Source: Chitinispirillaceae bacterium (GTDB taxonomy: Bacteria > Fibrobacterota > Chitinivibrionia > Chitinivibrionales > Chitinispirillaceae). Taken from it: a stretch of 64,000 bases of DNA. How positions within the stretch are numbered: position 1 is the first letter of the stretch; each line of letters begins with the position of its first letter. The DNA is taken from assembly GCA_016929595.1 (NCBI GenBank), contig JAFGIN010000089.1:1-64000 (forward strand), given 5' to 3'. The position numbers were made by a program, and so were the translations under genes. Of this stretch, positions 8,932 through 36,115 are shown piece by piece. The notes beneath the pieces were generated by a model. That model saw only the letters and a list, made by a program, of their open reading frames with translations, did no database searches and had not been told where the DNA came from.

Positions 8932-9008
8932 ATGAATTATGAATTATGAATTATGAATTATGAATTGTGAATTGTGAATTGTGAATTGTGAATTGTGAAT
9001 TGTGAATA
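8932..9008. repeat. Heptanucleotide tandem array
   Basis: Five perfect ATGAATT units (8932-8966) are followed by five perfect GTGAATT units (8967-9001) and a partial one. The array ends about 55 bases before the methyltransferase start, within promoter range. A 7-base unit cannot keep frame, but here it lies outside coding sequence, so changes in copy number would alter promoter spacing rather than a protein. Confidence 0.9.
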
Positions 9009-9062: not shown

Positions 9063-9866
9063 ATGAAAAAAGACTATGTACATGGTTATTCAGACAGGGA
9101 GTCAATCCGTCTTGAAGATCAGGCTGAATGCTTGAGTGAGATTCTTCATCATGACTCAAATTTTCCACAGAAGTCATTAATTTTAGAAGCTGGTTGCGGT
9201 GTTGGTGCCCAAACAAAAATTGTTGCTCCAAAAAATCCGGATTCAAAGCTTATTTCAATCGATATATCCGAAGATTCTCTTAAGAAAGCAAAGGAAACAA
9301 TCGTATCTCAAGAGATTGGAAATGTTGAATTTCAGCATGGCAATATTTTTGATCTTCAGTTTCCGGATGAATACTTTGATCATGTCTTTGTGTGCTTTGT
9401 TCTGGAACATCTGCCAGACCCCCTTCGTGCGCTCAGTGCACTGAAACGCGTTCTCAAGAGTGGCGGGACCATTACTCTGATAGAGGGGGATCACGGGTCA
9501 ACCTACTTTTATCCTGAAAGTAACTTTGCTCAAAAAGCAATTAATGCACTCGTTAAACTCCAATCGGGAAACGGTGGAAATGCCCTGATTGGAAGACAAC
9601 TGTATCCACTTCTCGTTACTGCCGGTTTTAAAAATTGCACAGTTTCTCCCCGGATGGTGTATGTGGATTCCAGCAGGCCGGCTCTGGTGAGTGGATTTAC
9701 AAAAAATACATTTATCGCTATGATCGAAGGAGTCAGAGAAAAAGCGGTCCGGGATTCTGTAATCGATAAGGAAGAAATTGATAAGGGAATATCTGATTTG
9801 TATCTGACAACTCAGGATGATGGTGTTTTTTGTTATACCTTTTTCAAAGGTGTCGGGTATAAGTGA
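9063..9866 (+). CDS. SAM-dependent class I methyltransferase
   Basis: 267 residues. The Rossmann SAM-binding motif I is ILEAGCGVGAQTKIVA (about residues 40-55). It is followed by ISIDISEDSL (motif II, ribose contact), HGNIFDLQFPDEYFDHVFVCFVLEHL (motifs III/IV) and LKSGGTITLIEGDHG (motif VI region). This is the Methyltransf_11/25 pattern of small-molecule methyltransferases acting in the cytoplasm. The substrate is not evident. It stands alone, directly downstream of a heptanucleotide repeat array and upstream of a decayed rtcB. GGAGG lies four bases before the ATG. Confidence 0.88.
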   Translation: MKKDYVHGYSDRESIRLEDQAECLSEILHHDSNFPQKSLILEAGCGVGAQTKIVAPKNPDSKLISIDISEDSLKKAKETIVSQEIGNVEFQHGNIFDLQFPDEYFDHVFVCFVLEHLPDPLRALSALKRVLKSGGTITLIEGDHGSTYFYPESNFAQKAINALVKLQSGNGGNALIGRQLYPLLVTAGFKNCTVSPRMVYVDSSRPALVSGFTKNTFIAMIEGVREKAVRDSVIDKEEIDKGISDLYLTTQDDGVFCYTFFKGVGYK

Positions 9867-9909
9867 AATCCTGATACTGGTAGATCACTTAAGGTTATGA
9901 AATTACAAT

Positions 9910-10600
9910 TCAATAATTATGGTTATCGGGATCTAAAATATCAACTTTAAACTGATTTGTTGCCAGTATATTTCCAAATCCCCTTGAACCGTAATGTGAT
10001 AAAAATGCTACCGAATCGTTTTTAAGCCCGAATACATCTGCTGTTGTCGCATTGATTTCCTGTTTTTAATTAATACAGCTTCACATTCTCCAAAATGGTT
10101 TCCACCTCCATACGAGCCAAGCTTCATCAGTTTTCCTTCAGGTCACTGAACACTTCAAGCTTTATCAAGTGGTTAAGTCTTGAAGATAATGCATCTACTG
10201 ATCCGTTATGTCCACGATGATATGCGTCCTCACATCTCTGCGACCTGGATGCCGGAATTCCCAGAGTCTCACAAACCTGTTGTGAGGCACCATCAGTAAC
10301 AGCCCGAATTACGTTTTCGTACGGATCCTGCACGATTTTCTTACATTACATTGCGCTGTCCCTGTCCAGCGCCGGTTGGTGTCTGTTCCGTAATCGCATT
10401 GATCAGATCACGCATGATCCTCTTATCGGAAATCTCCGAAACCGGAAGATCAAGCTTTAACAGGCTCATAGAACATCTAATATCGGGGACCTGCAGGATG
10501 GGCGAGATTTTAAGACAACGCAACAGCGTGCTCGTATTGCCCCACCCACAATTGAACTCATTGGAAAACATGGGTTACTTTTCAGCGGTGTAAGCCACTT
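9910..10600 (-). pseudogene. Decayed RtcB-type RNA ligase gene
   Basis: Three minus-strand reading frames together spell parts of RtcB. 10341-10571 gives FNCGWGNTS and DIRCSMSLLKLDL with TPTGAGQGQ, matching the GVGxDIxCG/RLL region. 10127-10333 ends in VDALSSR, the segment before the GNH loop. A second frame gives KLGSYGGGNHFGECEAV, the RtcB metal-binding GSGNHF loop. A third gives VAFLSHYGSRGFGN, the HSGSRG motif. At least two frameshifts and a stop at 9910 well short of the normal C-terminus show that the gene is dead. RtcB seals RNA 2',3'-cyclic phosphate or 3'-phosphate ends; no intact copy or RNA cyclase is in the window. Confidence 0.8.
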
Positions 10601-11520
10601 ACCGGAAAACAAACGGAAGAGTCACAAACAAAGATACTCTTTTCGTTAAGCATGAACAGTTGATCAAATATTACGATATTAACAAAAAGGGTCACTGATT
10701 GGGAGAGTGTTCATCCTGATCCACTTGGGGATTAATTGGTTGGCGGAGTGGTAACAATGCTCATGCTTCTCCCCTCTGCGGTTATAATACGAGAGGTCCG
10801 GTAAACATTGACGTCTATATATCTGAATCTGAATAGTTACAATGTTTCAAAGATTAAACGTTAGGCTTTATATTAACTATGTATATTACAAACAGGGAAA
10901 GTAGTCACTGTTCTTTGGTAACTTGAGGTGCTGATTAAATTATTAGATTGAATAATGCTTTAGATTTTTTTTTATATTTTCTATTTGCATATTGGTAATT
11001 ACAAATATGTATATTAGATAAAAGAGAATATCGTGAATGCAGTGTCCCATTAGGTTAATATGTAAAAGTTAATATTATACGACTATTTATGCTTGTTTTT
11101 ATATCGCAGAGTCTATATGAAAACTTTTTAAATCAAAAAGATTCAATGTGTTAAAATCGGCAAAAAGTTGTTATATCTGTTGGATCTCATAATTTTTCGG
11201 GTATATAAAAGTGTTTCATGTAAAATTGATATGTAAATAGATAAAACCTATTAAGTATTGTAGAGAAGTATCTTAATCGTAAAAAAAGAGTACTACTCAG
11301 GAGTCAGAATTCAGTAGAGAAAGAGTAAGAAAGAGTGCATTTTTATCATGATGTAATGATTTACTACATATTTTCTTTACTTTTTCTCTTATTCTGACTC
11401 CTGACTCCTTCGCGAGCTCGGGATGCATACCTGATGAGTAGTTGCAAAAAAAGTATCTATTGCAGATTTCTCTGAACTCGTAAAAATATGTTATATTATG
11501 TATTAATAGGGGAGGGCCCG
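10601..11520. other. Long gene-free AT-rich region
   Basis: No gene that I can support. 10601-10850 holds fragments of mixed composition that may be further rtcB debris, and a GAATAGTTAC at 10831-10840 identical to the arm of the element at 4526. 10860-11280 is very AT-rich with no ORF. An inverted-repeat element lies at 11291-11443. GGGGAGGG just before 11521 is the ribosome-binding site of the radical SAM gene. I looked for a short precursor-peptide gene here and found none with a ribosome-binding site. Confidence 0.55.
11291..11443. repeat. Palindromic intergenic element, copy 3
   Basis: A long imperfect inverted repeat. The left arm, ACTACTCAGGAGTCAGAATTCA followed by GAGAAAGAGTAAGAAAG, is mirrored by the right arm CTTTACTTTTTCTCTTATTCTGACTCC and an outer TGAGTAGT. 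The right arm carries the inserted GAGCTCGGGATG core also seen at 8860 and 4485. It looks like a non-coding mobile or REP-like element about 85 bases upstream of the radical SAM gene. Confidence 0.65.
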
Positions 11521-12753
11521 GTGAAGATCAAATTTATTGACGCTGAAACATTCATATGTCAAATAATCGATGAAACAGCATTGAAAGCCATTTCTTTTCT
11601 GGAAAATGAAAAGTATACACGAGAAACTATAAAGGATAAAATATTTATAAATGGTGTGCTTCCATCATTTCCCGGAGAATCATGGAATCGCTTTTTTACA
11701 AATTGTTATGGTATTTCCAATTTTAAACGTATTCCTTTATGGACAGATATTGTATGCACGGGGAGATGTCATTGCAATTGCTGGCACTGCTTTCGATCGA
11801 AACATAAAAACAATGAGGATCTGGAGTTAGATATAATTGCATCCGTAATGCAAGACGCTAAAGAATGTGGTGCTGTAATTATTGGGGTAACTGGTGGGGA
11901 ACCTATGTTACGGAACGATATAGTCGAAATCATCAATTGTATTCCAAATGGTACTGAAGGACAGTTGTACACTACAGGTATCAATATAAACGATCAGTTT
12001 TACAAAAAAATTGAAAATTCAAATCTCACACGTTGTGTAATAAGCCTTGACCACTATAATGAGACGATTGTAAATCAACGTAGAAATTACAAGAATGCGT
12101 ATTCGGATGCTATACGGGCAATATCAATTCTTGCCGATACACCTCTATATGTTACAGTCACCTTGTGTCTGACAGAAGAATTATGTTCTGAAACAGAGCT
12201 GAATAAGTATCTTGAATTTGTTTGCAAACTGCGTGCTGATGAAATACGGATCATTCTTCCGGTTCCTCAAGGCAATCTTGAAAATAAGGATAACAAGCGT
12301 CTTTATATTGATGCGATAAATTTGTTACGAATTTTTAAGAAGAACACGCTTTTTGATACCGAATTGCCATCAATTCTTCTTTTTTGCGACTATGAAAGCA
12401 GATATTGTCTGGGTTGTGGTGCCGGAACACACATCCTTTCTATAAATAATGATGGGAATGTGAGTCCTTGTGTCGCTTTACCTTTATCGTTCGGTAATGT
12501 CAAAGAAACAAAACTCAAAGAAATATATACAAACATGGAACCTTTTTTCAAAACATCATGGCCTGTCTGTTATGGTAAACAAATGAACGGGTTTTTAGTA
12601 AGAAATGGTCTTTTTAAAGAGAGTTATCCCTATTCGGTCGATTTCTCCCGTTATATTGCTTCGCAGTGTTCAAATGGTACGAAGCAGGGAGCGTTTTTTA
12701 AAGCTCTTACGTCTACAGAACAAGTTAAACCGGTTCTTGCATATGCAAACTAG
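11521..12753 (+). CDS. Radical SAM enzyme with SPASM-like C-terminus
   Basis: 410 residues from the GTG at 11521. GGAGG at 11511-11515 sets this start, and the upstream ATG at 11488 lies before the ribosome-binding site. Residues 1-75 form a small N-terminal domain, possibly PqqD-like but not certain. RCHCNCWHCF holds the radical SAM CxxxCxxC (Cys 83, 87, 90), followed by GVTGGEP (SAM contact). The C-terminus has CLGCGAGTHILSINNDGNVSPC and a later PVCYG, a SPASM-like auxiliary cluster pattern. Such enzymes modify peptides or small molecules. It heads a tight cassette with a KAS III-like gene (9 bases on) and a flavodoxin-ferredoxin, a possible electron source. The substrate is unknown. Confidence 0.88.
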   Translation: MKIKFIDAETFICQIIDETALKAISFLENEKYTRETIKDKIFINGVLPSFPGESWNRFFTNCYGISNFKRIPLWTDIVCTGRCHCNCWHCFRSKHKNNEDLELDIIASVMQDAKECGAVIIGVTGGEPMLRNDIVEIINCIPNGTEGQLYTTGININDQFYKKIENSNLTRCVISLDHYNETIVNQRRNYKNAYSDAIRAISILADTPLYVTVTLCLTEELCSETELNKYLEFVCKLRADEIRIILPVPQGNLENKDNKRLYIDAINLLRIFKKNTLFDTELPSILLFCDYESRYCLGCGAGTHILSINNDGNVSPCVALPLSFGNVKETKLKEIYTNMEPFFKTSWPVCYGKQMNGFLVRNGLFKESYPYSVDFSRYIASQCSNGTKQGAFFKALTSTEQVKPVLAYAN

Positions 12754-12762
12754 AGGAATACT

Positions 12763-13815
12763 ATGATAAAAGCAAACATTACAGGGATTGGCAGATATAC
12801 TCCACCGTTGGTTACAAATGAAGAAATTATAAACGTTTATGGAAAAAAAGCCCGTATTTTAGCTGAAAAAATTCATCATAAAACCAGGTACTGGGCAATA
12901 GATGTAATAACTGGCAAGACAGATCTGACGAATACCGATATGGCTTGTGAGGCATCAAAACAGGCATTGCTCATGGCGGGAAGAGATGCCAATGACATTG
13001 ATTTGATCATATATTCTACGGCAACTCCCGATTATCCGCTTCCGCCATGCTTTACAATTCTTCAGGAAAAACTCGGTATAAAAAGGTGCACAGGGTTTGA
13101 CATCAGGTCTGGTTGCTCCGGTTTTGGCAGCGCATTGATTACCGCACAGCAGTTTATATCAAACGGAAATGCAAAAGCCGCTTTGGTGATTGGAGCTGAT
13201 CTTAATACAACAAGAGGAAGTTTTCATTATCTCAATATGGATAAGAATGAAGTTCCACTTAAAATCCTTTACAATATAATGTTGTTTGGTGATGCTGCAG
13301 GGGCGGTTGTTCTTGAAGCTTCTCATGATACAGAGTATGGCATTTTCGGATATAATATGGGATCATCAAAAGCTCACATGCCATTTGGTTCAGTAATTCA
13401 AGTAGGTGGATCCAGGTATCCTTTTCCGTCTGAAACCTTGCAGAATGAAGATTGGGTAATTACACAGGATGGAAAATTAACCGAAGAGCTGATTGTTGAG
13501 GTTCTATTTGAATCTCTGAAGGAATTCAAGGAAAAATTTAATATACGTCTTGATTTTTTTGATACAATAATATTTCCGGTAGATATCCCTGGTATTCAGG
13601 AAAAAGTTGAAAAACATTTCGCCGATCTTAATCCGGAAAAAATCGTCAGTATTGGATCAGAAGGTGGAAGCCTTGCAAATGCTGCGATACCACTATCGCT
13701 TTATAAAGCTTATGAGACAAATTTACTCAAAAGAGGAAATAATATTTTGATTTATACAGCAGAGAATACACGCTGGCAATTTGCACTTATTGGAATGAAG
13801 TGGGGGAGGGATTGA
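12763..13815 (+). CDS. KAS III (FabH/thiolase-fold)-like protein with altered active site
   Basis: 350 residues aligning end to end with beta-ketoacyl-ACP synthase III: an IIYSTATPDYPLPP region, the nucleophile loop RSGCSGFGSA (Cys118), and LFGDAAGAVVLE. The other catalytic residues are gone. Where FabH has VPHQAN, this protein has FPVDIP (Val273 for His); where FabH has GNTSAAS, it has GGSLANAA (Ser303 for Asn); and the glycine-rich GGGFTWG is replaced by AENTRWQ. A Cys-only KAS III cannot run normal decarboxylative condensation. It may be an acyltransferase, thioesterase-like or acyl-carrier enzyme. It lies between the radical SAM gene and the flavodoxin-ferredoxin gene, with 9 and 11 base gaps. 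Confidence 0.85.
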   Translation: MIKANITGIGRYTPPLVTNEEIINVYGKKARILAEKIHHKTRYWAIDVITGKTDLTNTDMACEASKQALLMAGRDANDIDLIIYSTATPDYPLPPCFTILQEKLGIKRCTGFDIRSGCSGFGSALITAQQFISNGNAKAALVIGADLNTTRGSFHYLNMDKNEVPLKILYNIMLFGDAAGAVVLEASHDTEYGIFGYNMGSSKAHMPFGSVIQVGGSRYPFPSETLQNEDWVITQDGKLTEELIVEVLFESLKEFKEKFNIRLDFFDTIIFPVDIPGIQEKVEKHFADLNPEKIVSIGSEGGSLANAAIPLSLYKAYETNLLKRGNNILIYTAENTRWQFALIGMKWGRD

Positions 13816-13826
13816 AAAATTTAATT

Positions 13827-14672
13827 ATGAAAACTGCAATTTATTACTATTCAGGAACAGGAAATACCAAATATGGGGTTGAATACCTGAAAAAATGTTT
13901 TGAAAAACATAACAATACATGTGAGTTGATTTCCATTTGTGATAAACCATCTTTTGAACCTGAACATTATGATTTAGTGGGATTCGCTTCACCAGTATAC
14001 CATGGCTATCCTGCAAAGGTAATGATTGATTTCATAGAAAAAATTTCATGTTGTGCAATGGAAATACCCGCGTTTACCATTCTCTGTCCCTGTTTCAATT
14101 TGTTTGAACTTGGTTATTGGGGAGCAAAGGAACATTTCTATGGAATGCTGGCTAAAAAAAATATCAGAGTAATTACTGAATCTGGCTTTTTTGGTGAAGC
14201 CAGCCATCCGGTTATCCGAACCTTCTTTTTAGGGCCATTTTTTAAATTTATTGGTACACCATATTTAAGTAAAGGGCGTCCAGACAGTCGTGACACTTCT
14301 GCTATTTCTGATTTTTCAGAAACAATCACAAAAAATTTTAACAACTACAAATCCGGCATAGTCCCAAAGCTACCCCACAGTAAGATAAAAAAATGGATTT
14401 CAACTAACGTAGTATTTTCTTTTGTTGAGTATTGTAACAAACACTTTCTGATAAAAAAAGTTAATAAAAATGAATGTACAAAATGTGGTGCATGTTTCAA
14501 TGTCTGTCCGGTTAATGCAATTGTTCTCAATGAGTATCCGGTATTTCAATCATCGTGTATTCATTGTCAGAATTGCATTAATATCTGTCCAAATGGTGCC
14601 ATTGAGTACAATACATTACGTAAGGTCAATCCATACAGATCAGCTTATGGAGCACATCAATCAGATATATGA
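13827..14672 (+). CDS. Flavodoxin-ferredoxin fusion (EFR1-type)
   Basis: 281 residues from the ATG at 13827. In-frame GTG (13800) and TTG starts exist, but the domain begins at MKTAIYYYSGTGNTKYG, the FMN-phosphate loop. Residues 1-190 are a flavodoxin-like domain (VGFASPVYHGYPAK is the second FMN loop). Residues 215-265 are a two-[4Fe-4S] ferredoxin: CTKCGACFNVCP and CIHCQNCINICP. Such proteins move electrons between ferredoxin and flavin. In this cassette it is a natural reductant for the radical SAM enzyme or for reducing a bound product. The KAS III-like gene ends 11 bases upstream. Confidence 0.9.
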   Translation: MKTAIYYYSGTGNTKYGVEYLKKCFEKHNNTCELISICDKPSFEPEHYDLVGFASPVYHGYPAKVMIDFIEKISCCAMEIPAFTILCPCFNLFELGYWGAKEHFYGMLAKKNIRVITESGFFGEASHPVIRTFFLGPFFKFIGTPYLSKGRPDSRDTSAISDFSETITKNFNNYKSGIVPKLPHSKIKKWISTNVVFSFVEYCNKHFLIKKVNKNECTKCGACFNVCPVNAIVLNEYPVFQSSCIHCQNCINICPNGAIEYNTLRKVNPYRSAYGAHQSDI

Positions 14673-15097: not shown

Positions 15098-15739
15098 ATG
15101 GAACTTACTACCGAACAGATAATCATTCAAGCTGCCCGCAAAGAGTTTATAGAAACTGGTCTCGCTGGTGCCAGAATGCAAAAAATTGCAGAACGGGCTG
15201 GCGTTAACAAAGCATTGTTGCACTACTATTTTCGATCGAAGGAAAAACTATACGAAGCATCATTTAAAGATTCGGCGTTCACTTTTTGGGATGCTGTTGA
15301 AAAACAAATTCCGGAGATTGAAAAATCAGGTAATCTCAGAATACTTATACAAACCGTTGTAAGTACCTTTTTTAGGGTGATGAGTGCTAATCCAGATTTC
15401 CCCAAAATGATTATCAGAGAGATAGCTGATGGAGCAACAATTATCCCGGTTCTTGGAAACAGCGTTTATAATCGATTCCGCTCTCTTCTTCCGAGGGTAC
15501 AGAAGATAATCAGGGAAGAAGTGGCACAGGGAAACGTGTATCCGTTTGATCCGTTTCATCTCTTATTAAATATTACCGGTATGTGTGCAATATCAGTGAT
15601 GATTGAGCCTGTTGTGAATGTAATAGCAGCAAAGATTGGTAAAACGACAAATTTTGATGAATCCTACTATCAGAAAAGAATCAACTCGATTGTGGAGCTC
15701 ATATCTCATGGCGTTTACATGGAGGAAAAACAGGGGTGA
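15098..15739 (+). CDS. TetR/AcrR family transcriptional regulator
   Basis: 213 residues. The N-terminal helix-turn-helix is typical: ARKEFIETGLAGARMQKIAERAGVN then KALLHYYFRSKEKLYEA (residues 12-50). The rest is a helical ligand-binding domain of the size seen in YbiH/CecR-like regulators, which control the related ybhG-ybhFSR efflux genes of E. coli. It is first in a six-gene export operon: its TGA overlaps the GTG of the outer-membrane-factor gene. It probably represses its own operon until a substrate binds. Confidence 0.92.
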   Translation: MELTTEQIIIQAARKEFIETGLAGARMQKIAERAGVNKALLHYYFRSKEKLYEASFKDSAFTFWDAVEKQIPEIEKSGNLRILIQTVVSTFFRVMSANPDFPKMIIREIADGATIIPVLGNSVYNRFRSLLPRVQKIIREEVAQGNVYPFDPFHLLLNITGMCAISVMIEPVVNVIAAKIGKTTNFDESYYQKRINSIVELISHGVYMEEKQG

Positions 15740-17016
15740 AAAAATCTTCTTTACTGCTAGTTTTGATCGGGTGTTCTTTTGGCGGTGATGTAGTATCATT
15801 GCATGATGCACAACGGTTAATGTTTGAAAACAACAGTGATTTGAAAGCTGCAGAGCTTGAGATTAATAAAATGCAGCAAATATTAAAAGAAACAAAATCT
15901 TCACTTTTCCCGTCCCTTGATCTTTCTGCGGGTATAAGTTATCAGACTGAAAAAGGTGAAGTAACTATTGATATACCGCCTATTAGAACAACTGTTGAGA
16001 CAAGTAGAAACGATCGTATTGAAACCGGTATCGACTGCAGCTACCTGATTTTCACCGGTTTTTCACGTGCGAATGCAATTAAAGGAGTACGTGCTGCAAT
16101 CATTCAGAAGGAAGCATCACTCCGTTCAGGCAGGAACAGTGCATCATTTTCCCTTGCTTTTATGTATTGCCATATGACTTACTTTACAAGAAAGCTTTTA
16201 ACTATTAAAAACCATATTACTACTTTGGAAAAATATTATTTACATGTGAGAGGGATGTGGGGTAGCGGTCTTATTACAAAGACAAAAGTACTTGAAGTAG
16301 AAAGTAAGCTAAAAAATACAGAGGTAGATCTGGCTGAGACTTTTCAGTCTGTCGATTCTCTCAGGCGTGAAATTATAAATCTTATCGGCATCGATGACAG
16401 TCTCTGTATGCCGGAGGAAAATGTCAGTTACTTCGACACTGTTTCATTACCTTCAGTAATTGACACATTACGTTCCGAGTTACAATCTCTAAACGCATCG
16501 AAACAGCAACTGATATCATCTCAAAAAGTTATTGGTGCTAAAAGATTACCTGTCGTAGCCGCAACTGCAGGTTATAGATATGGTAGGCCCGGGCTTAGTG
16601 GTAATTCTGATGAGTTTATGGGATATTTCATTGCTGGTGTTCAGGTTAAATTTAATCTGTTTGATGGATTTAAAACGATATCGCAGCTTCATCAGATCAT
16701 AATAAGCCAAAAAATTCTTGAAACAAACAGGGAAGCATCTATCGATACATGGGAAAATGCTCTTTTAACATCAAAGAGGCAGCGAATGTTTCTGGATAAA
16801 AAAATCGAAGCTGCCGGATTTTCGATAGAGGCAGCCAGCGCACTGGTGCAATCATCAAAGGAACAGTATGAAGCCGGACAGCTTACCCAGATAGAATACC
16901 TCAATGCTATGGATAATGATGCGCTTGCTCGGCTGCGACTCGAGCAGGTGCGCAATGAACGACGATTGATAATCTTAAAAGGATTATATCTATCCGGTAT
17001 TGATCTGAAATTTTAA
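15736..17016 (+). CDS. TolC-family outer-membrane efflux protein
   Basis: 426 residues, GTG start overlapping the TetR stop (GTGA). The signal sequence ends LVLIGC, possibly lipidated. Two repeats of the outer-membrane efflux domain are visible: helical region LHDAQRLMFENNSDLKAAELEINKMQ, strands LFPSLDLSAGISYQTEKG, a second helical hairpin, then RLPVVAATAGYRYGRPG and QVKFNLFDGFKT, and the closing YEAGQLTQIEYLNAMDN typical of TolC family C-termini. It forms the outer-membrane channel for the adaptor and ABC transporter encoded downstream. Confidence 0.9.
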   Translation: MKKSSLLLVLIGCSFGGDVVSLHDAQRLMFENNSDLKAAELEINKMQQILKETKSSLFPSLDLSAGISYQTEKGEVTIDIPPIRTTVETSRNDRIETGIDCSYLIFTGFSRANAIKGVRAAIIQKEASLRSGRNSASFSLAFMYCHMTYFTRKLLTIKNHITTLEKYYLHVRGMWGSGLITKTKVLEVESKLKNTEVDLAETFQSVDSLRREIINLIGIDDSLCMPEENVSYFDTVSLPSVIDTLRSELQSLNASKQQLISSQKVIGAKRLPVVAATAGYRYGRPGLSGNSDEFMGYFIAGVQVKFNLFDGFKTISQLHQIIISQKILETNREASIDTWENALLTSKRQRMFLDKKIEAAGFSIEAASALVQSSKEQYEAGQLTQIEYLNAMDNDALARLRLEQVRNERRLIILKGLYLSGIDLKF

Positions 17017-17042
17017 ATGTGATCTTTTCAGGAAGGTTGATT

Positions 17043-17942
17043 ATGAAATGGATGGTGATTGTTCAATGTATAATATTGTTGTCGTATTTTGTACAGTGTA
17101 CAAAAACAGATGATACAAATTTTCTTGGCTCCGCAGTGATTGAATCTACAACAATTCAGGTTGCGACGACTGCACAGGGATTTATTGCTGCTCTTTATAA
17201 GGATGAGGGTGAACAAGTAAAGATGGCAGAAAGGCTTGCGATAATCGATACCGTTCCCCTTGTTCTTAAAAAAAGAGAAATGTTGGCAAGTAGAGAGGAA
17301 TTGTTTTCATCTGTAAGAGCTAAGCGGCAGGAGATCGAATCTATCAAAAGTGATCTCGAAGGAATCAAACGTGAGTATAAACGTATTGAATGGCTGGCGA
17401 AAAGTGGTGCAGTTCCAACTCAGCAACGGGATAATCTTGAAACACAGATTGAATCGACTCAACTGAAGTTAAATGCTCAACAGGAGGTCCTGAAATCAAT
17501 AATGGATAAGGATGCCGTGATTATAGCCAGGATCGAACAACTTGATGATCAATTAAACCGTTCTTATGTAACGGCTACAAAAAACGGATTTATCTGCACT
17601 CGTTATCGTAATGTTAATGAAATTTACGCACCAGGTAATCCTCTCTATGAACTATGTACATATGATACTGTTTATGCAGACTTTTTCGTTTCGCAGGTGG
17701 TTCTTGGATCGCTTAAACTGGGCCAGGTACTCAGAGTGAGAGTTGATATGCAAAAAGCTGGGGATAGTAGTGCCGTATTTATTCCCGGAACTTTGACATG
17801 GATTAGTGAACAGGCGGAATTTTCACCAAAAAATATTCAAACCCGTGAAAGCCGTAATGAATTGGTTTTCAGAATACGCTCTACGATTGCAAATACTGAT
17901 AGAACGTTGAAACGTGGTCTTCCGGTGGAGATCTGGAGGTAA
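17043..17942 (+). CDS. HlyD-family periplasmic adaptor, lipoprotein
   Basis: 299 residues from the ATG at 17043, preceded by AGGAAGG. The signal ends YFVQC (possible lipid anchor). The biotinyl-lipoyl half GFIAALYKDEGEQVKMAERLAIIDT is followed by a coiled-coil hairpin (residues about 75-165: REELFSSVRAKRQEIESIKSDLEG and the returning helix), then ATKNGFICTRYRNVNEIYAPGNPLYEL and a beta-barrel domain. This layout is that of YbhG/YhiI adaptors, which join ABC-2 type exporters to TolC channels. It lies directly between the channel gene and the ATPase genes. Confidence 0.9.
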   Translation: MKWMVIVQCIILLSYFVQCTKTDDTNFLGSAVIESTTIQVATTAQGFIAALYKDEGEQVKMAERLAIIDTVPLVLKKREMLASREELFSSVRAKRQEIESIKSDLEGIKREYKRIEWLAKSGAVPTQQRDNLETQIESTQLKLNAQQEVLKSIMDKDAVIIARIEQLDDQLNRSYVTATKNGFICTRYRNVNEIYAPGNPLYELCTYDTVYADFFVSQVVLGSLKLGQVLRVRVDMQKAGDSSAVFIPGTLTWISEQAEFSPKNIQTRESRNELVFRIRSTIANTDRTLKRGLPVEIWR

Positions 17943-17945
17943 GCA

Positions 17946-18881
17946 GTGTCGATTGTGATTGTAGAAAATCTCTCAAAGAATTATTCTGGGGAGCATGCCC
18001 TGAGAACTGTTTCTTTTTCAGTAAAGAAAGGTACGATATACGGTATTATAGGTGCTGATGGAGCAGGTAAAACCACTCTTATGCGTATCCTTACGACCTT
18101 AATTCCCGCAGATTCCGGTACCGTATCCATTATGGGTTATCATTTCAAGAAAGATGTTCAGTCAATTCGGTCATCAATTGGTTATATGCCGCAGCGGTTT
18201 TCATTGTATCAGGATCTTTCTGTAAAGGAAAATATTCTTTTTTTTGCAGATGTTTTCGGAATTTCGGGAACGGAACGTAAAGAAGGAATTCAACGGTTAC
18301 TTTCATTTTCACGTCTTGAAAAGTTCAAAAACCGCCGTGCTGCGCATTTAAGCGGAGGAATGAAACAGAAACTCGCACTTTGTTGCGCTCTTATCCACAA
18401 GCCGCAGGTACTTCTGCTTGACGAACCGACTACGGGAGTCGACCCTGTCTCCCGCAAGGAGTTCAGTGAGATTCTTTTTGACCTCAAAAAACAGGGAATA
18501 ACCATTCTGGTTTCAACACCATATATGGATGAAGCTGATATGTGTGATGAGTTGATGATTATACATAAAGGGTCTGTTTTACGAAATGGATGCCCGGATT
18601 CACTCAAGATGGATCTTCCCTACAGAGTTTATCAAGTTGAAAACAGACAGCAAACGGTTCACTGCCCCCCTGCGGTTATAAAAAGAAAAGGGATCAGGAT
18701 GGTTTACCCATCAGCAGGTACTATACATGTTATGGCCGATCCTGAGCAAATCAACGCTGAGGAAGTTTTTGAATTTACTTACGCAGCTTTTTCCGGTTTT
18801 GAAACAGTAAAAGAGGTTAACCCTTCTATTGAAGACCTTTTTTTTTACCTCGTATTTTCAACTGATGAGCTCAAACCATGA
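17946..18881 (+). CDS. ABC transporter ATP-binding protein
   Basis: 311 residues, GTG start with GGAGG upstream. Walker A GADGAGKTTLM, Q-loop GYMPQRFSLYQDLSV, ABC signature LSGGMKQKLALC, Walker B LLLDEPTTGVDP and the H-loop position replaced by STPYMDEA, where the switch His is Pro. The C-terminal 80 residues are an extension typical of drug-export ATPases. It is one half of a two-ATPase set (with the next gene) equivalent to the two nucleotide-binding domains of E. coli YbhF, here as separate polypeptides. Its stop overlaps the next start (ATGA). Confidence 0.92.
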   Translation: MSIVIVENLSKNYSGEHALRTVSFSVKKGTIYGIIGADGAGKTTLMRILTTLIPADSGTVSIMGYHFKKDVQSIRSSIGYMPQRFSLYQDLSVKENILFFADVFGISGTERKEGIQRLLSFSRLEKFKNRRAAHLSGGMKQKLALCCALIHKPQVLLLDEPTTGVDPVSRKEFSEILFDLKKQGITILVSTPYMDEADMCDELMIIHKGSVLRNGCPDSLKMDLPYRVYQVENRQQTVHCPPAVIKRKGIRMVYPSAGTIHVMADPEQINAEEVFEFTYAAFSGFETVKEVNPSIEDLFFYLVFSTDELKP

Positions 18882-19633
18882 GTGCTGCAGATAGTGTTAT
18901 TGAAACCACTAATCTTTCTAAACGGTTTGGCAAATTTACTGCTGTCAACAGTATAAGCTTTTCTGTACAGCGTGGGGAAATTTTTGGGTTTCTCGGAGCA
19001 AACGGTGCCGGCAAAACAACAGCCATAAGAATGCTGTGTGGTTTATTGATACCATCTGGAGGCTCTGGCAGGGTAGCAGGATATGACATCAGCACCCATG
19101 CTTCAAAACTACGATCTCATATTGGTTATATGTCTCAGAGGTTCAGTTTATATAATGATTTTCTTGTTAAAGATAACCTGTTTCTATACGGATCAATTTA
19201 TGAACTAAATAGAATAAATTTAAATAATCGGATAGATGAGATCTCTTCGTTGCTTGGACTTAAAGAGTTACTTTCAAAAAAAACCGGCACTCTTCCGTGG
19301 GGCTGGCAACAACGCCTCAGTTTGGCATGTGCAAATCTTCATCAACCAGATATCCTCTTTCTTGATGAACCCACCGGTTCTGTAGACCCTGTGAGCAGAA
19401 GAAACTTCTGGGACCTTATTATCTCGTTGTCAGAAAAAGGAACTACCATTTTTATCACTACCCACCATATGGATGAAGCTGAATATTGTCATCGTATTTC
19501 TATAATGGTACAGGGTAGGATTGCAGCGATTGACACACCACAACAGTTGAAGTTGTCGACAGATTCTTTAACTCTTCAGGATGCATTCATTAAAATTATT
19601 TCTGCTCCTGGTTGCAATGGAGCAGAAAAATGA
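18878..19633 (+). CDS. ABC transporter ATP-binding protein
   Basis: 251 residues. Walker A GANGAGKTTAIR, Q-loop GYMSQRFSLYNDFLV, Walker B ILFLDEPTGSVDP and H-loop TTHHMDEA are intact. The signature motif reads LPWGWQQRLSLA rather than LSGGQ, so one composite ATP site in a dimer with the upstream ATPase is non-canonical. The upstream ATPase has a standard signature but lacks the switch His, so the pair is asymmetric and probably works only as a heterodimer. The ATG overlaps the previous stop, and the next permease starts at its own stop. Confidence 0.92.
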   Translation: MSAADSVIETTNLSKRFGKFTAVNSISFSVQRGEIFGFLGANGAGKTTAIRMLCGLLIPSGGSGRVAGYDISTHASKLRSHIGYMSQRFSLYNDFLVKDNLFLYGSIYELNRINLNNRIDEISSLLGLKELLSKKTGTLPWGWQQRLSLACANLHQPDILFLDEPTGSVDPVSRRNFWDLIISLSEKGTTIFITTHHMDEAEYCHRISIMVQGRIAAIDTPQQLKLSTDSLTLQDAFIKIISAPGCNGAEK

Positions 19634-20736
19634 TTCAGCGTCTTTATGCGATAGTCCTGAAAGAACTCAGACATATCCTTCGTGATAACCAGACCTTATT
19701 TATTATACTTGCAATGCCTGTTATCATGATGTTTCTTTATGGATACGCTCTTACTATGGACATTATTGACGCCCCAATACTGATTATCAATCCAAATCAT
19801 GATGCTTATGTTAATGAATTAACTGCCCGCATTGATGCTTCTGCCATGTTTAAAGTCTGTGGCACTATTAAAAGTTGTTCAGACATCCAGGCCCAGTTTC
19901 GGAGGCATCACGTGAAAATCATCTGCAGATTTCCCGCATCATTCTCAATAGATCTCAATAATGGTGGTACTGCGGCTCCGGTTCAGGTACTCATTGACGG
20001 ATCTGATCCAAACACTGCGATTATCCTGAAAAACGCCTTTGAAGGGATACTTTCTTCTATCACACTAGACATGATGGGGATCAAGCCTGCGGATATTATT
20101 ATTGTTAATCAGCGAATCCTGTATAATCAGGAACAGAAAAGCGCACTTTTCTTTGTACCAGGTCTCATGGCGATAATTCTCCTCATGATAAGCGCTTTAC
20201 TTACATCACTAACTATTACACGTGAAAAGGAACTTGGTACACTTGAACAGTTACTCGTTTCCCCTTTACACCCTTTTGAAATAATTCTTGGCAAAATTAT
20301 ACCTTATGTCATACTGTCGGGTATCGACGGAGTCCTGATTCTTATCACAGGAAACCTTGCATTTGGAGTGAATGTTGCCGGCAGTTTAACATTTCTTGCG
20401 TTAACAGGTACAATATATATATTCGCTTCATTGTCAATTGGTATGTTGATCAGCACTGTTGCCACTACCCAGCAACAGGCAATGATGATGGTAATGCCTA
20501 TTACCATGCTGCCAACGATAATACTTTCAGGCTTTATATTTCCACTGTCGAGTCTACCCATTGCACTTCGTTTGGTTAGTAATATTGTTCCGGCAACATG
20601 GTTTCTCCAGATTATTCGCGGTATTATTCTTAAAGGTACCGGCATTAGAGAGCTCTGGCTTCAAATGGCAATATTATGTGGTATTTCTTTTTTTCTGATA
20701 GCGGTATCTGTGAAAAGATTCAGGGGGCATCTATGA
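19630..20736 (+). CDS. ABC-2 type permease
   Basis: 368 residues from the ATG at 19630, which overlaps the ATPase stop (ATGA). One N-terminal membrane helix (LFIILAMPVIMMFLYGYALTM), a large extracytoplasmic loop of about 140 residues, then five helices from FVPGLMAIILLMISALLTSL onward, with the cytoplasmic EKELGTLEQLLVSPL segment between. This is the ABC2_membrane_3 layout of YbhS/YhhJ. It pairs with the following permease to form the membrane channel. Confidence 0.92.
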   Translation: MIQRLYAIVLKELRHILRDNQTLFIILAMPVIMMFLYGYALTMDIIDAPILIINPNHDAYVNELTARIDASAMFKVCGTIKSCSDIQAQFRRHHVKIICRFPASFSIDLNNGGTAAPVQVLIDGSDPNTAIILKNAFEGILSSITLDMMGIKPADIIIVNQRILYNQEQKSALFFVPGLMAIILLMISALLTSLTITREKELGTLEQLLVSPLHPFEIILGKIIPYVILSGIDGVLILITGNLAFGVNVAGSLTFLALTGTIYIFASLSIGMLISTVATTQQQAMMMVMPITMLPTIILSGFIFPLSSLPIALRLVSNIVPATWFLQIIRGIILKGTGIRELWLQMAILCGISFFLIAVSVKRFRGHL

Positions 20737-21860
20737 ACCTGTTCCGGCTTATGATATGGAAAGAATTCATGCATATACGGGAAGACAAGTTCTCTATCCG
20801 CCTGATGATAGTAGAGATAGTAGCACAACTACTGATCATGGGATATGCTTTAACAACTGAAGTTAAAAATACTCCAATAGGCATTTATGATCAAAGTAAT
20901 ACTCAGTCAAGCAGGTCCCTGGTTGCATCCATCCGCGCAAACAATCTTTTTAAATATATGGGTGATTATGATAACTATGATAATCTGATCAATGCGATAG
21001 AGGAAAGTAAACTGAGTCTGGCACTGATCATTCCATCCGATTTTCATAAACAAATCTATAGTAAAAATGGATGCAATATACAGCTGCTTGTAGATGGGCA
21101 GGATGCAAACTCTGCAAATGTCTCTTCGGGTTATATAAATGCTGTTGTCAATAGATGGAAAACAGCTTTTATTTCCTCACAATATAATAAAAATGGAACC
21201 AGTCTGGAAACAATAGTTCCTGTTTCTGCCAATATGACCATTCTTTACAACCCGCTTCTTAAATCAACCTGGTTTATGGTTCCTGCGCTTGTTGTACTGT
21301 TGGTTACGATGGTGACAAGCCTGCTTTCGGGGTTATCTATAGTAAAGGAACATGAGGCCGGTACACTGGAACAACTGCTGGTCACACCAATCAGTACTTT
21401 CCATATACTAGCAGGTAAAACAATACCCTATTTTATCCTCGGGTTTGTTGAACTTTGTATTTTCCTTCTTTTTGCACAACTCTGGTTTCGAATTCCGTTT
21501 CGTGGAGATTTTTTTACAGTAGCACTTTTTGGCTTCATTTACATGCTCTCATCTATAGGTATTGGTATTTTAACATCGACTTTAGCGCGTACTCCGCAGC
21601 AGGTTCTGCTTCTTATCTGGTTTACTTTACTTTTTTTTATGTTATTAAGTGGCTTTTTTATTCCAATTGAAAATATGCCCACCTGGGTTCAGCATGTTAC
21701 TATCATAAATCCTGTCAGATGGTTTATGCTGGCTGTTCGAGAGATCTTTCTTAAAGGATCTACCCTTTCAGAACTCTGGTATGAAGCAGTTGTCATGTTA
21801 ATTACAGGAGTTATCGTTTTTGGCTTTTCAATTCTGTTCTTTCATCGACGGGTACAATAA
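20733..21860 (+). CDS. ABC-2 type permease
   Basis: 375 residues from the ATG at 20733, overlapping the previous stop. Same topology as its neighbour: N-terminal helix after WKEFMHIREDKFSIR, a large external loop, then helices starting FMVPALVVLLVTMVTSLLSG, the conserved EHEAGTLEQLLVTPIS segment and the GFFIPIENMPTWVQ motif near the end. It is the second half-permease (YbhR-like) and last gene of the TetR-to-permease operon. No terminator with a T-run is obvious after it. Confidence 0.92.
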   Translation: MNLFRLMIWKEFMHIREDKFSIRLMIVEIVAQLLIMGYALTTEVKNTPIGIYDQSNTQSSRSLVASIRANNLFKYMGDYDNYDNLINAIEESKLSLALIIPSDFHKQIYSKNGCNIQLLVDGQDANSANVSSGYINAVVNRWKTAFISSQYNKNGTSLETIVPVSANMTILYNPLLKSTWFMVPALVVLLVTMVTSLLSGLSIVKEHEAGTLEQLLVTPISTFHILAGKTIPYFILGFVELCIFLLFAQLWFRIPFRGDFFTVALFGFIYMLSSIGIGILTSTLARTPQQVLLLIWFTLLFFMLLSGFFIPIENMPTWVQHVTIINPVRWFMLAVREIFLKGSTLSELWYEAVVMLITGVIVFGFSILFFHRRVQ

Positions 21861-31767: not shown

Positions 31768-32937
31768 TTATTTAAAAACCTGGACGGTTTTGAGCAGTAA
31801 CCAGGGATTTTTAGCAAACGTGCGGGTAAATACCCGTAAATAGTTCATTTTATCGGGATTTTCTCTTAAAAGAGAGTGTGCAATACGGTCAAGAAACTGG
31901 TCATTTCCATATTTTAATAAAAACTTTTTTAAACTATAGGAACGGTCCTGCTGTTTTCCGAAATTTTTCTTCCATTCTTTTTCGTATCGCCTGAGAATCG
32001 AATAATTAACGGAACTGCCCGAAACAGCCTGAGCTGCATATGTCCCGGCTGTTTTTCCTGCGTACAGCGAATAGCCAATCCCGCCGCCACTCAGGCAGTT
32101 AACCTGACGGGCTGCATCACCGATAACCATTACGTTTTCTTTTACAAGTGGACGTAACCACCGGGCGACCGGGACCGCTCCGCAATGAAGATGTAATGTT
32201 TTTGATGCTGGAAATTCTTTGTCAATAAACTTCTCAAGCAGTTCTTTTGCCTTTCCAGACTCACTGCTTTTTCCGCATATACCAAGTCCGACATTAGCTT
32301 CTCCTGCACCACGGGGAAACACCCAGGCGTATCCACCAGGAGAAAAACGGGATCCAGTATAAAAAAAACAGACCTCTTTTTCGATTAATGGTGATACAAC
32401 ACGGGCAAAAGCACAAGTCTCGATATCTGCCATGTCAAGAGTAGTGTTCCATCCGCACTGACGAGCCAAACGGGATTCCACTCCTTCTGCAAGAATGACA
32501 CAGCGGCCATTTACCGTTCGATCACTGCTTTTACAATCGTATGTACCATCTGTACAACGTGAGAGTGTTTCCACCGCAAAGTTGTTTCTGTATATCGCAC
32601 CGGCCTTAATCGCATCCTGCACAATTTCAGCATCAAACTTTTCCCGATCGATAATGTAACTTTCCGATTCCCCGCCAATATACACTTTGAGACCCGAAGG
32701 GGATACCATGCAATATTTTTTAAGAATTGATTTGACCCATTCCTGACGGATGACGCCTCTATGGCTAGTCAGGCTTTTTACACCGACACCCTCACCACAG
32801 CGTACCGGGATCCCAACCTCATTTTTTCTTTCAAGTAAACAAACATTTCGACCGTTTTTTGCCGCGTGAAGTGCAGCCATAGATCCTGCCGGACCTGCAC
32901 CAATGATTACAATGTCGTATTTATGAGTTTCAGCCAT
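31768..32937 (-). CDS. Geranylgeranyl reductase family FAD-dependent oxidoreductase
   Basis: 389 residues. Residues 8-24, IVIIGAGPAGSMAALHAAK, are the FAD-binding GxGxxG fold. RCGEGVGVKSL and SYIIDREKFDAEIV follow the digeranylgeranylglycerophospholipid/chlorophyll reductase pattern, AWVFPRGAGEANVGLG is the family's YxWxFPxGx(3)vG signature, and VMIGDAARQVNCLSGGGIGYSLYAGKTAG is the second FAD contact. It saturates isoprenoid double bonds. It starts two bases after a 2[4Fe-4S] ferredoxin gene, the electron donor type used by archaeal homologues. The substrate may be a product of the two UbiA enzymes upstream. Confidence 0.92.
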   Translation of the reverse strand: MAETHKYDIVIIGAGPAGSMAALHAAKNGRNVCLLERKNEVGIPVRCGEGVGVKSLTSHRGVIRQEWVKSILKKYCMVSPSGLKVYIGGESESYIIDREKFDAEIVQDAIKAGAIYRNNFAVETLSRCTDGTYDCKSSDRTVNGRCVILAEGVESRLARQCGWNTTLDMADIETCAFARVVSPLIEKEVCFFYTGSRFSPGGYAWVFPRGAGEANVGLGICGKSSESGKAKELLEKFIDKEFPASKTLHLHCGAVPVARWLRPLVKENVMVIGDAARQVNCLSGGGIGYSLYAGKTAGTYAAQAVSGSSVNYSILRRYEKEWKKNFGKQQDRSYSLKKFLLKYGNDQFLDRIAHSLLRENPDKMNYLRVFTRTFAKNPWLLLKTVQVFK

Positions 32938-32939
32938 TT

Positions 32940-33110
32940 TTATTTTTCCATTGTTAATGCACCAAATGGGCAGATTTTAACGCATTTTCCACATCTCAGG
33001 CAGGTCTGATTGTTTATTTTCAGTACATCTGTCAGTATGAGTGAATCTGACGGACAGATACTGATACAACTTCCACATTGATCACAGTTTTTTTCATCAA
33101 CTTTCAACAT
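32940..33110 (-). CDS. 2[4Fe-4S] ferredoxin (56 residues)
   Basis: A 56-residue gene easily missed for its size. MLKVDEKNCDQCGSCISICP gives Cys 9, 12, 15, 19, and CLRCGKCVKICP gives Cys 37, 40, 43, 47: two perfect CxxCxxCxxxCP cluster motifs, hence a bacterial-type 8Fe ferredoxin. Its start lies 14 bases inside the end of the TPR gene, and the reductase begins two bases after its stop, so it is firmly part of the operon. I infer that it supplies electrons to the geranylgeranyl reductase; archaeal reductases of this type depend on ferredoxin. Confidence 0.93.
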   Translation of the reverse strand: MLKVDEKNCDQCGSCISICPSDSLILTDVLKINNQTCLRCGKCVKICPFGALTMEK

Positions 33111-34113
33111 TCTGCGTCCGCTCCAGTAATCGCTGGGTATCTTTTCTTACTGATTTGTATTTATTTAAATCCGGTTCACTCAGAATAGCTTTGCATAATA
33201 TAATTGCATTTTCTCTCTGCCCTGCACTTGTATGCATGTGTGCGGCTTTGTTTTTAGTCATAAAGTAATTATGACGTCCTTCGCTTGTTCTGTTGTATGA
33301 TGCCGCGAGTTTTTCATAGCTTACAGCAGCTTTTGCATAGTCTTTCAATGCCTCAAAATATTTGGCTCTTGACCACAGGACGAATCTGCTTTCGGGGTAC
33401 ATTTGTTCAAGATGAGAGAGCAGTGAATCTGCCTTGTCCAGCATTTTCTCTTTAATGTACACCTCAGAGAGTGATAGTGCGGCTGCAGTTCCAGTGATTG
33501 TAGATTTTCGACTGCAAACACTAAGCCGTTCAAATCCCCTGTTTTTATCACCTGGATACCAGAACAGAACCCACCAGAGGCGGCTGCGTAACTCCGCACG
33601 GGCGAAATCGTACAATCCCAGAAAAAAATAGACCTCCGTATTAGTGGAATCCAGCTCAAGAGCTTCTTTAAGGAACTCCAGCGCCTCAAAACCATTCTGT
33701 AATCCCGAAACATACGCATTGCTTCTGAGAAAGAAAGCTGAATACATCGATTTGTTAAAACCTGCAAGCATTCTGCTGTAACTGCTCTTCCCATGATGCT
33801 TCTCAAGAGAATCTATGAGAAGCGCAGCTTTCTTATTCGTTGATACAATGAGCGCAGAATCAATACTACGTTCAAAGTCCATATCACGCATTCCAAGAAC
33901 AGTAAGTTTTAGAATATAGGGAAATGGATCTCTCGAATTAGTTTCAATGATTGAATCCGTAAGCGCAAGAGCTTCCTTGAAGTCGCAATTGATCATAGAC
34001 GGAATGACCAGCCGGGAACTGGCTACGCTTTTTTCTGGAAGTGAGAATCCAAAGCAGAGTGAGGCAACCAAAAGAACCCAGGCAAGACTGAAATGTATTT
34101 GAGATGTATTCAT
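33097..34113 (-). CDS. Secreted TPR-repeat protein
   Basis: 338 residues. A hydrophobic N-terminal signal (SLAWVLLVASLCFGFSLPE) suggests export to the periplasm or membrane. The rest is helical with tetratricopeptide repeats: NGFEALEFLKEALELDSTNTEVY..LGLYDFAR, KADSLLSHLEQMYPESRFVL and DYAKAAVSYEKLAASY. Residues 165-185 (RLWWVLFWYPGDKNRG) are hydrophobic and aromatic. No catalytic motif is visible. Its ATG overlaps the stop of the upstream UbiA gene and its end overlaps the ferredoxin start, so it is co-translated with the lipid-type enzymes. It may be a scaffold; the role is unknown. Confidence 0.8.
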   Translation of the reverse strand: MNTSQIHFSLAWVLLVASLCFGFSLPEKSVASSRLVIPSMINCDFKEALALTDSIIETNSRDPFPYILKLTVLGMRDMDFERSIDSALIVSTNKKAALLIDSLEKHHGKSSYSRMLAGFNKSMYSAFFLRSNAYVSGLQNGFEALEFLKEALELDSTNTEVYFFLGLYDFARAELRSRLWWVLFWYPGDKNRGFERLSVCSRKSTITGTAAALSLSEVYIKEKMLDKADSLLSHLEQMYPESRFVLWSRAKYFEALKDYAKAAVSYEKLAASYNRTSEGRHNYFMTKNKAAHMHTSAGQRENAIILCKAILSEPDLNKYKSVRKDTQRLLERTQNVES

Positions 34114-35072
34114 TTAACCGGCATTAGTGAAGGATAGTGAACATTGTGACGTATTTGAAAATACAGTTTTGTAGAAATAAAAACAATGATTCCTGCAACA
34201 AGTATCACAGGAAGAACCATTGATGCACAGATCATGACCAGAGCGCCTCCAGCTTTGTAGGTGGATTCCATGAAAAACGAGTTTGGTTTTACCATGTACC
34301 CAATATAGAACGGTGCAGGCGCAATCGCACAAATTAGTGATAGAACGTCAAATCTATAAATAGAAGTAATTAAAGCGCATAACAGTAGTGCAAATGCCAG
34401 CTGGTTTGCTCTCTCATTTCCCAGTGCCACGGCAGTTGTGTTTTTTCCTTCAGTGAGATCTCCATCACGATCAGGCATGGTGGAACTTATCGATCCGGCA
34501 CACATAAGGAGGAAATAGGGCAATGATGCCTTCAAAAATGTGTTTGCCTGTAAAAGATTGTTGCCACTTAAATACCATCCGGCTGCAAATGCAATCACTC
34601 CATATCCCAGGGCATTTGAGACAAAATCAAGCAATGGCCTTCCGGAGTAACATGTTGGCTTGAAACTGTAGAGTGCTCCGAGGACAACGGATGCAAATGA
34701 GAGGAGGGCCAACTGAAAGTTACCCGCACTGATGGGTATTAGAACAGAGGCCAGGAAAAGGATGAATGCACATGTCCAGGCTGATGACACCTTGACAATT
34801 CCTGATGCCAGCAGGGGAAGACCGCCGTTTTTTTTATCAACATCAATATCTGCGATCTGATTCAAAATATATACAGATGCAACAGAAAGTGAAAAAACCA
34901 GTATGCCAATGTATACTGTTATCGGTGTTGATAATGAAAAAAGGGTAAACGAGCCTGTTGTAGTATAAACTCCGCATCGGTAACCGAATGCACAAAAACC
35001 CCATACAGGGATAAGCAGCACCGGGCGGGTCAGAAATAAAAGATCAAAGATATATTGTATTATTCGTTTCAT
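34110..35072 (-). CDS. UbiA family prenyltransferase
   Basis: 320 residues, about eight or nine membrane helices. The first Asp-rich motif is NQIADIDVDKKNGGLPLLASG (NxxxDxxxD form, about residues 68-88) and the second MPDRDGDLTEGKNTTAVALG (about residues 200-220). Both bind the prenyl diphosphate through Mg2+. UbiA enzymes include quinone, heme O, decaprenyl-phosphoribose and digeranylgeranylglyceryl phosphate synthases; sequence alone does not tell which. The operon with a geranylgeranyl reductase and ferredoxin favours a saturated prenyl-lipid product. It overlaps both neighbours by four bases (ATGA). Confidence 0.88.
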   Translation of the reverse strand: MKRIIQYIFDLLFLTRPVLLIPVWGFCAFGYRCGVYTTTGSFTLFSLSTPITVYIGILVFSLSVASVYILNQIADIDVDKKNGGLPLLASGIVKVSSAWTCAFILFLASVLIPISAGNFQLALLSFASVVLGALYSFKPTCYSGRPLLDFVSNALGYGVIAFAAGWYLSGNNLLQANTFLKASLPYFLLMCAGSISSTMPDRDGDLTEGKNTTAVALGNERANQLAFALLLCALITSIYRFDVLSLICAIAPAPFYIGYMVKPNSFFMESTYKAGGALVMICASMVLPVILVAGIIVFISTKLYFQIRHNVHYPSLMPVK

Positions 35073-36115
35073 TTTGACTTGAAAGTCGGGTATTCGATAC
35101 CGAAACGGTTACGATAGTAGATTCTGCTTCCGAAAAAAGTAGCGAAGATCAGAATCGCATACTCCGGAATATATACCGCCACGGTAGCGGAGAGCAAAAA
35201 TACCGGCCATTTGAAAACCTGAAATGCCATCTCTTTTTTTGTTGAGAAGGTGAAGATCAGAAACAGCAGAAGACTGATAAGGGTTGGAACAATCATAACC
35301 CATTGATTAAACTCAATAAAAAAAGAAAATATCAGAGCGAGTGCACAAAATACTACCGCAGTTCTGGCTGTTGCTTTTTCCCCATATTTGACACAGAACG
35401 TTTTTTTGCCTGTGCGTGCATCACCTTCCGCATCGGGTATAGTTGTGGCAAGGAAAACAGCACCATTTGCGAATCCGGCAGCTGCGGAAGAGAGTAGACC
35501 CGTTAGAAGCAGATCTGTAGAAAATGTGAAAGCCTCTTTACTTAAAAACCAGCCAATAAGAAATGTCAGGATACCATGGCCAAGTGAATTTGAGATAACT
35601 CCACCCCATGCATGGTTTTTTAATTCAAAGGGAGGAAGGTCATAGAGAAATCCAATAAAAAGCCCTGTCGCAAAAAGAACTACAAAAACCACCCCGAGAA
35701 AAGATGCTATTAACATTCCGGAAACAGCGCAGAGTGATGCCAGTACCCAGGCGGTTCTGATTGAGATAATTTTATGTGGAAGAAGAAAAAGTTTGTGGTT
35801 AATTCTGTCACTTTCGATGTCTGCAATCTGATTAACAACGTATATTGATGCAACAATGAGGGAGAACCCGAGAATTCCCAGCCATAAAAATCCAGAATCA
35901 GACCAGCTGAGCATCCGGGTAAAAACGCCACCGGGAGAAGCATGCTCCTTTCCAGAGATCCACCCGAGAATTAAGATGGTCCAGACTGGCGCAAGCAGAG
36001 GGATTCTGAGGAGAAAAAAACAGTCGATGGCTTTTTGCAACGATTTTTGCACACTATTTTCCGGAATTGACTCGTTTATGGCGCCTTTAGCTGATCTGAT
36101 ACTATCTACAGACAC
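35069..36115 (-). CDS. UbiA family prenyltransferase
   Basis: 348 residues, the first gene of the operon and a paralogue of the next one. A 25-residue polar N-terminal extension precedes FFLLRIPLLAPVWTILILGW. Asp motif 1 is VNQIADIESDRINHKLFLLPH, and motif 2 is TTIPDAEGDARTGKKTFCVKYGEK. Multiple membrane helices fill the rest, ending in FGSRIYYRNRFGIEYP, a tail also seen in the partner (FQIRHNVHYPSL). Two linked UbiA proteins could act on successive steps, such as two prenylations of one head group, or form a pair. The substrate is not known. Confidence 0.87.
   Translation of the reverse strand: MSVDSIRSAKGAINESIPENSVQKSLQKAIDCFFLLRIPLLAPVWTILILGWISGKEHASPGGVFTRMLSWSDSGFLWLGILGFSLIVASIYVVNQIADIESDRINHKLFLLPHKIISIRTAWVLASLCAVSGMLIASFLGVVFVVLFATGLFIGFLYDLPPFELKNHAWGGVISNSLGHGILTFLIGWFLSKEAFTFSTDLLLTGLLSSAAAGFANGAVFLATTIPDAEGDARTGKKTFCVKYGEKATARTAVVFCALALIFSFFIEFNQWVMIVPTLISLLLFLIFTFSTKKEMAFQVFKWPVFLLSATVAVYIPEYAILIFATFFGSRIYYRNRFGIEYPTFKSK

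Follow-up and report, generated by a model that had tools for sequence, protein, structure and literature searches.

A radical SAM and KAS III-like gene pair shared between two phyla, with a putative electron donor, in a Chitinispirillaceae bacterium

Introduction

Three closely spaced genes of a Chitinispirillaceae bacterium raise the question of whether they form one system, what kind of chemistry such a system would perform and whether the exporter encoded beside them belongs to it. They lie on the forward strand of the window, by which we mean the whole analysed stretch of 64,000 nucleotides, and encode a radical SAM (rSAM) enzyme with a SPASM-like C-terminal region, a KAS III-fold protein (KAS) and a flavodoxin-ferredoxin protein. 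An earlier note, made from the sequence alone, had read the three as one cassette standing beside its own exporter.

Results

Layout of the locus

The rSAM gene is placed at 11521..12753 (PF04055, PF13186). Its open reading frame begins at ATG 11488 and ends at 12753, but GTG 11521, with the Shine-Dalgarno-like GGGGAGG just 5' of it, is the likelier start. The non-canonical KAS gene (12763..13815, PF08545) follows after 9 bases and the flavodoxin-ferredoxin gene (ATG 13827..14672) after another 11; an alternative in-frame GTG at 13800 would make the latter overlap the KAS gene. The exporter genes open with the ATG of a TetR gene at 15098, 425 bases past the end of the trio. When open reading frames and Pfam matches were checked, the genes, strand, gaps and motifs described in the earlier note all proved correct. 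GC content of the three genes is 36, 38 and 34%, compared with 38-45% in the neighbors, so that the trio is below most of them.

The surroundings upstream have some features of their own. An AT-rich stretch just upstream of the trio contains a decayed gene (9880-10620, minus strand) with frameshifts and stops, whose fragments, SYGGGNHFGECEAVLIKN and ADVFGLKNDSVAFLSHYGSRG among them, are presumably the remnant of an RtcB RNA ligase. An inverted repeat at 11299-11409, just 5' of the rSAM gene, has the arms AGGAGTCAGAATTCAG and CTGACTCCTGACTCCT with 79 bases between them, and its exact core occurs once in the window. Further upstream, at 8933-9006, a 7-base tandem repeat (TGAATTA/TGAATTG) precedes a methyltransferase gene at 9063.

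Recurrence of the rSAM-KAS pair

When the KAS was compared by tblastn with 72,556 plasmids, one match stood out, on plasmid pHIC of the deep-sea bacterium Haliovirga abyssi (Fusobacteriota), with 53% identity and an E value of 2e-111, while the next best match reached ~30%. The gene preceding it on the same strand encodes an rSAM 45% identical to that of the window, and pHIC was again the only near-full-length match when the same collection was searched with the rSAM. These two plasmid genes, RDY08_RS11020-RS11025, annotated as a radical SAM protein and a 3-oxoacyl-ACP synthase III C-terminal domain protein, thus have the same order and strand as their counterparts in the window and are, to our knowledge, unstudied. 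The window and pHIC are the only known occurrences of the pair. Their settings differ: in H. abyssi a TetR gene is divergent and upstream, no EFR1-family flavodoxin-ferredoxin gene adjoins the pair, and a 70 aa ORF and EamA transporter, DUF1302, MMPL and LolA-like genes lie downstream. The EFR1 protein of H. abyssi is encoded 11.5 kb from the pair on the opposite strand and is 26% identical to that of the trio, which places EFR1 outside the conserved unit. Recurrence, which the earlier note had offered as a check on a three-gene cassette, is therefore seen for rSAM and KAS and not for the third gene. A second LolA-like/MMPL set on the H. abyssi plasmid (L015:27536-31002, minus strand) has an EFR1 gene adjoining and no rSAM-KAS pair.

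Searches closer to the window's genome gave a different picture. Among 168 genomes of its phylum, no other genome contained an ortholog of the KAS at E<=1e-30 or of the trio's EFR1 at E<=1e-18, and the closest relatives of the rSAM had 29%, 28% and 26% identity; those of their loci that were inspected have other contexts, one of them adjoining a methyltransferase gene. A scan of the genome contigs for more KAS genes returned only a FabH-like protein at 25%, in a Chloroflexi genome, and no KAS with rSAM was present in the viral contigs or phages. The KAS was also absent from a 400-genome sample of the phylum of that Chloroflexi genome, a search that is weak since it had no positive control. One related rSAM/SPASM protein (L027:5786-7950, genome G005), the start of which overlaps the end of a methyltransferase gene, has an N-terminal PPFPG..F.R.F motif in common with the rSAM of the window.

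That a second phylum has rSAM and KAS genes adjacent and identically ordered is more than would be expected by chance, and judging from these comparisons the pair has travelled between phyla. Because it is present in Haliovirga while the 168 genomes of the window's own phylum gave neither KAS nor EFR1 orthologs and only distant rSAMs, it appears to be a mobile unit on which selection acts. All three genes were probably gained together, since the relatives of the rSAM in the phylum are not only distant but, where inspected, located elsewhere, and the trio has the look of a single recent acquisition by the window's genome.

The neighboring exporter

According to Pfam matches, the exporter operon (15098..21860, plus strand) consists of genes for a TetR regulator (15098-15739), a TolC-like OEP (15736-17016), an HlyD-like MFP (17019-17942), two ABC ATPases (17946-18881 and 18878-19633) and two ABC-2 permeases (19612-20736 and 20676-21860), all on the same strand. 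MFP relatives are present in 26 of the 168 genomes of the phylum, that is, in 25 besides the one studied here, and none of these 25 carries the trio's KAS or EFR1. Six larger regions from several families were inspected; the order TetR-TolC-MFP-ABC-ABC-permease-permease is intact in five, while the sixth yielded neither a TetR nor a TolC-like gene at the threshold used. The co-occurrence of exporter and biosynthetic genes that marks a dedicated export cluster was not found, and the transporters of H. abyssi are different. Since the operon is conserved in the phylum without the KAS and EFR1 of the trio, it is by this synteny an older neighbor beside which the trio landed, unrelated to it by descent. 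Membership of the exporter in the trio's system was rejected on these grounds, and with it the earlier claim that the cassette stands beside its own exporter. Use of the adjoining exporter by the product is possible at best.

The active site of the KAS III-like protein

The KAS matches PF08545 with 62.5 bits, over the Pfam cut-off, but remains under every NCBIfam cut-off, its best score for the curated KAS III model being 145 bits where 249 are required. It shares with E. coli FabH the fold family, ~25% identity and the nucleophilic cysteine, Cys112 of FabH being retained in the alignment as C118 within SGCSGF. His244 is replaced by V271, Asn274 by S303 and the GGG loop by AENTRW, a 12-residue insert precedes FGD, and the gene is situated outside any fatty acid synthesis cluster. 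The H. abyssi protein has isoleucine in place of the histidine, serine in place of the asparagine and the same AENTRW loop, so the loss of both residues is conserved and the Cys-His-Asn triad is incomplete in both. In the same alignment this triad is complete in six FabH-like comparison proteins and in the protein of a viral contig; FabH of E. coli, of the window's own genome and of Monoglobus retain all three residues. The lone catalytic cysteine of the earlier note is thus borne out by the alignment columns. It is known that the histidine and asparagine of FabH serve decarboxylative condensation. Their loss makes condensation unlikely, and the KAS is probably not a condensing enzyme; the residues in the catalytic columns led us to reject a FabH function.

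In a small maximum-likelihood tree a branch with support of 100/99 separates canonical FabH-like proteins from a set of four, in which the proteins of the window and of H. abyssi stand together with PDB 5by7 (deposited as 3-oxoacyl-ACP synthase III) and with OG782_RS00365, a biosynthetic-cluster protein of Streptomyces sp. NBC_00876, although the rows of the last two are long and their exact placement is unsure. All four share the insert before FGD, the lack of a histidine at the FabH position and an altered C-terminal loop, where 5by7 and OG782_RS00365 have in common with the KAS the pattern E-x-[ST]-[RK]-[WY] in place of GGG. These two are however only ~27-28% identical to the KAS of the window, and no rSAM gene adjoins OG782_RS00365 in the Streptomyces locus. 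Searches of papers for 5BY7 found nothing.

KAS III-fold proteins that transfer acyl groups are established, namely CerJ, ChlB3 and PtmR (PMC9573744). They have the fold and the cysteine nucleophile in common with the KAS and perform acyl transfer instead of condensation, and by analogy a putative acyl transfer is our best guess for its function. CerJ and ChlB3 differ in possessing a Cys-His-Asp triad, of which the window's KAS has the cysteine but no histidine at the FabH His and Asn columns, and CerJ is absent among its phmmer matches. The sole histidine invariant between the window and H. abyssi proteins, H39, is far from the FabH position. Another KAS III protein is encoded in the same genome (L029:3768-7057, contig C120, minus strand); it is fused to an N-terminal biotin/lipoyl-type domain and overlaps an E1 dehydrogenase/transketolase-like gene, and this unusual fusion suggests direct hand-over of an acyl group from a lipoyl arm.

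The rSAM enzyme and its putative electron donor

With 53.5 bits for PF04055 and 33 bits for the SPASM family PF13186, both past the Pfam cut-off, and with the CxxxCxxC motif C94-C98-C101, the first protein belongs to the radical SAM superfamily. Cysteines invariant relative to H. abyssi are these three and C310, C328, C361 and C394 (all numbered from ATG 11488). The full seven-cysteine SPASM motif, which would hold two auxiliary clusters, is not present, and the four conserved C-terminal cysteines would suffice for no more than one complete auxiliary cluster. All NCBIfam scores are far below cut-off, so no specific function is assigned there. By sequence, SkfB and PqqE are the closest proteins with a solved structure, and no PqqD match, such as an RRE would give, was found at the N-terminus at E<=5. 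AlphaFold models of the rSAM (pLDDT 34) and the KAS (pLDDT 49) were both too poor for use.

The third protein belongs to the EFR1 family (NF038196), with 108.4 bits against the NCBIfam cut-off of 75 and with Flavodoxin_5 and Fer4 above their Pfam cut-offs. It has the flavodoxin and 2x[4Fe-4S] architecture of that family but is a divergent member, at 108 bits compared with ~130-257 for the other EFR1 proteins of the phylum. The suggestion of the earlier note that it supplies electrons fits this membership, and from operon position and domains we infer that it is a putative electron donor to the rSAM.

Discussion

The pairing of the two genes, their lateral distribution and the loss of KAS active-site residues are most simply brought together if the trio is a laterally acquired cassette for tailoring a small molecule, a reading to which we give a probability of about 0.4. 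EFR1 would deliver low-potential electrons to the [4Fe-4S] clusters of the rSAM, which would modify a small substrate through a 5'-deoxyadenosyl radical. Cys118 of the KAS could take up an acyl group supplied by housekeeping acyl-CoA or acyl-ACP, to be passed on to an O, N or S nucleophile of the substrate, as in CerJ, ChlB3 and PtmR, with no decarboxylative Claisen condensation. Export, if any, would proceed through general pumps or unrelated ones nearby. Both the acylated product and the small-molecule nature of the substrate are what we infer from the parts; the surroundings of the trio showed no sign of a substrate or product, nor any acyl carrier protein or precursor peptide. Against this reading count the unlinked EFR1 gene in H. 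abyssi, the Cys-His-Asp triad of CerJ and ChlB3, which is not evident in the KAS, the small number of instances of the pair and the low confidence of both structural models.

The H. abyssi locus lends itself to other explanations too. The DUF1302, MMPL and LolA_like/DUF1329 genes after its pair resemble those of envelope lipid transport, and the rSAM weakly matches the model of the tetraether lipid synthase Tes, so that the rSAM might act on a thioester-held acyl chain, with the KAS as thioester-binding or acyl-transfer partner and a modified envelope lipid as product. We consider this unlikely, given that the Tes match is limited to the rSAM core and far under cut-off, that no such transport genes adjoin the cassette in the window and that the other LolA-like/MMPL set of H. 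abyssi stands without the pair. Somewhat less probable still is maturation of a ribosomal peptide, in which the rSAM would modify and the KAS acylate a RiPP-like precursor. SPASM-bearing rSAMs commonly mature peptides, SkfB and PqqE are the nearest solved structures and a 70 aa ORF directly follows the KAS gene in H. abyssi; yet no PqqD/RRE-like N-terminus was detected in the rSAM, its set of SPASM cysteines is incomplete, and by eye no small ORF is common to both loci and no candidate precursor was recognised. Neither a Pfam domain nor a plasmid-encoded relative was found for the 70 aa protein, which was rejected as carrier or precursor on these grounds.

The other two explanations concern the neighborhood itself, and we regard both as improbable to a similar degree. 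A single biosynthesis-export system with a dedicated TetR-controlled ABC exporter, as the earlier note proposed, would accord with the common strand and adjacency, and the H. abyssi pair too is near a TetR gene and transporters, but these transporters are of unlike types and the operon keeps its order in genomes of several families that lack the KAS and EFR1 of the trio. Alternatively, three functionally unrelated genes could have been acquired laterally and come to lie together by chance. Lateral DNA does adjoin the pseudogene remnant at 9880-10620, and EFR1 proteins are common in such anaerobes; what speaks against chance is the same gene order in another phylum at 45-53% identity and the gap of 9 bases.

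Returning to the tailoring cassette, the two-gene core is real and modestly novel, and the protein accompanying it is likely a reductase. Searches brought up no account of the rSAM-KAS-EFR1 combination in the searchable papers, a body that excludes most subscription journals. What is new is the pairing of rSAM with KAS and the stripped active site, while the component parts are of known kinds. That anaerobes use a mobile core of a reduced-SPASM rSAM and a cysteine-only KAS to make metabolites of a new class, both acylated and radically modified, is a more speculative proposal, which we hold to be doubtful. If true, a compact mobile pathway would join radical chemistry to a KAS III fold that retains only its nucleophile, the known uses of this fold in acyl transfer would be widened, and a minimal gene pair would be at hand for locating related clusters in anaerobes, which have been little mined for natural products.

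A separate group of genes in the window (31768-36115, minus strand) includes two adjoining UbiA prenyltransferase genes, near which a geranylgeranyl-reductase-like flavoprotein and a TPR-match protein are encoded, and is possibly an isoprenoid lipid cluster.
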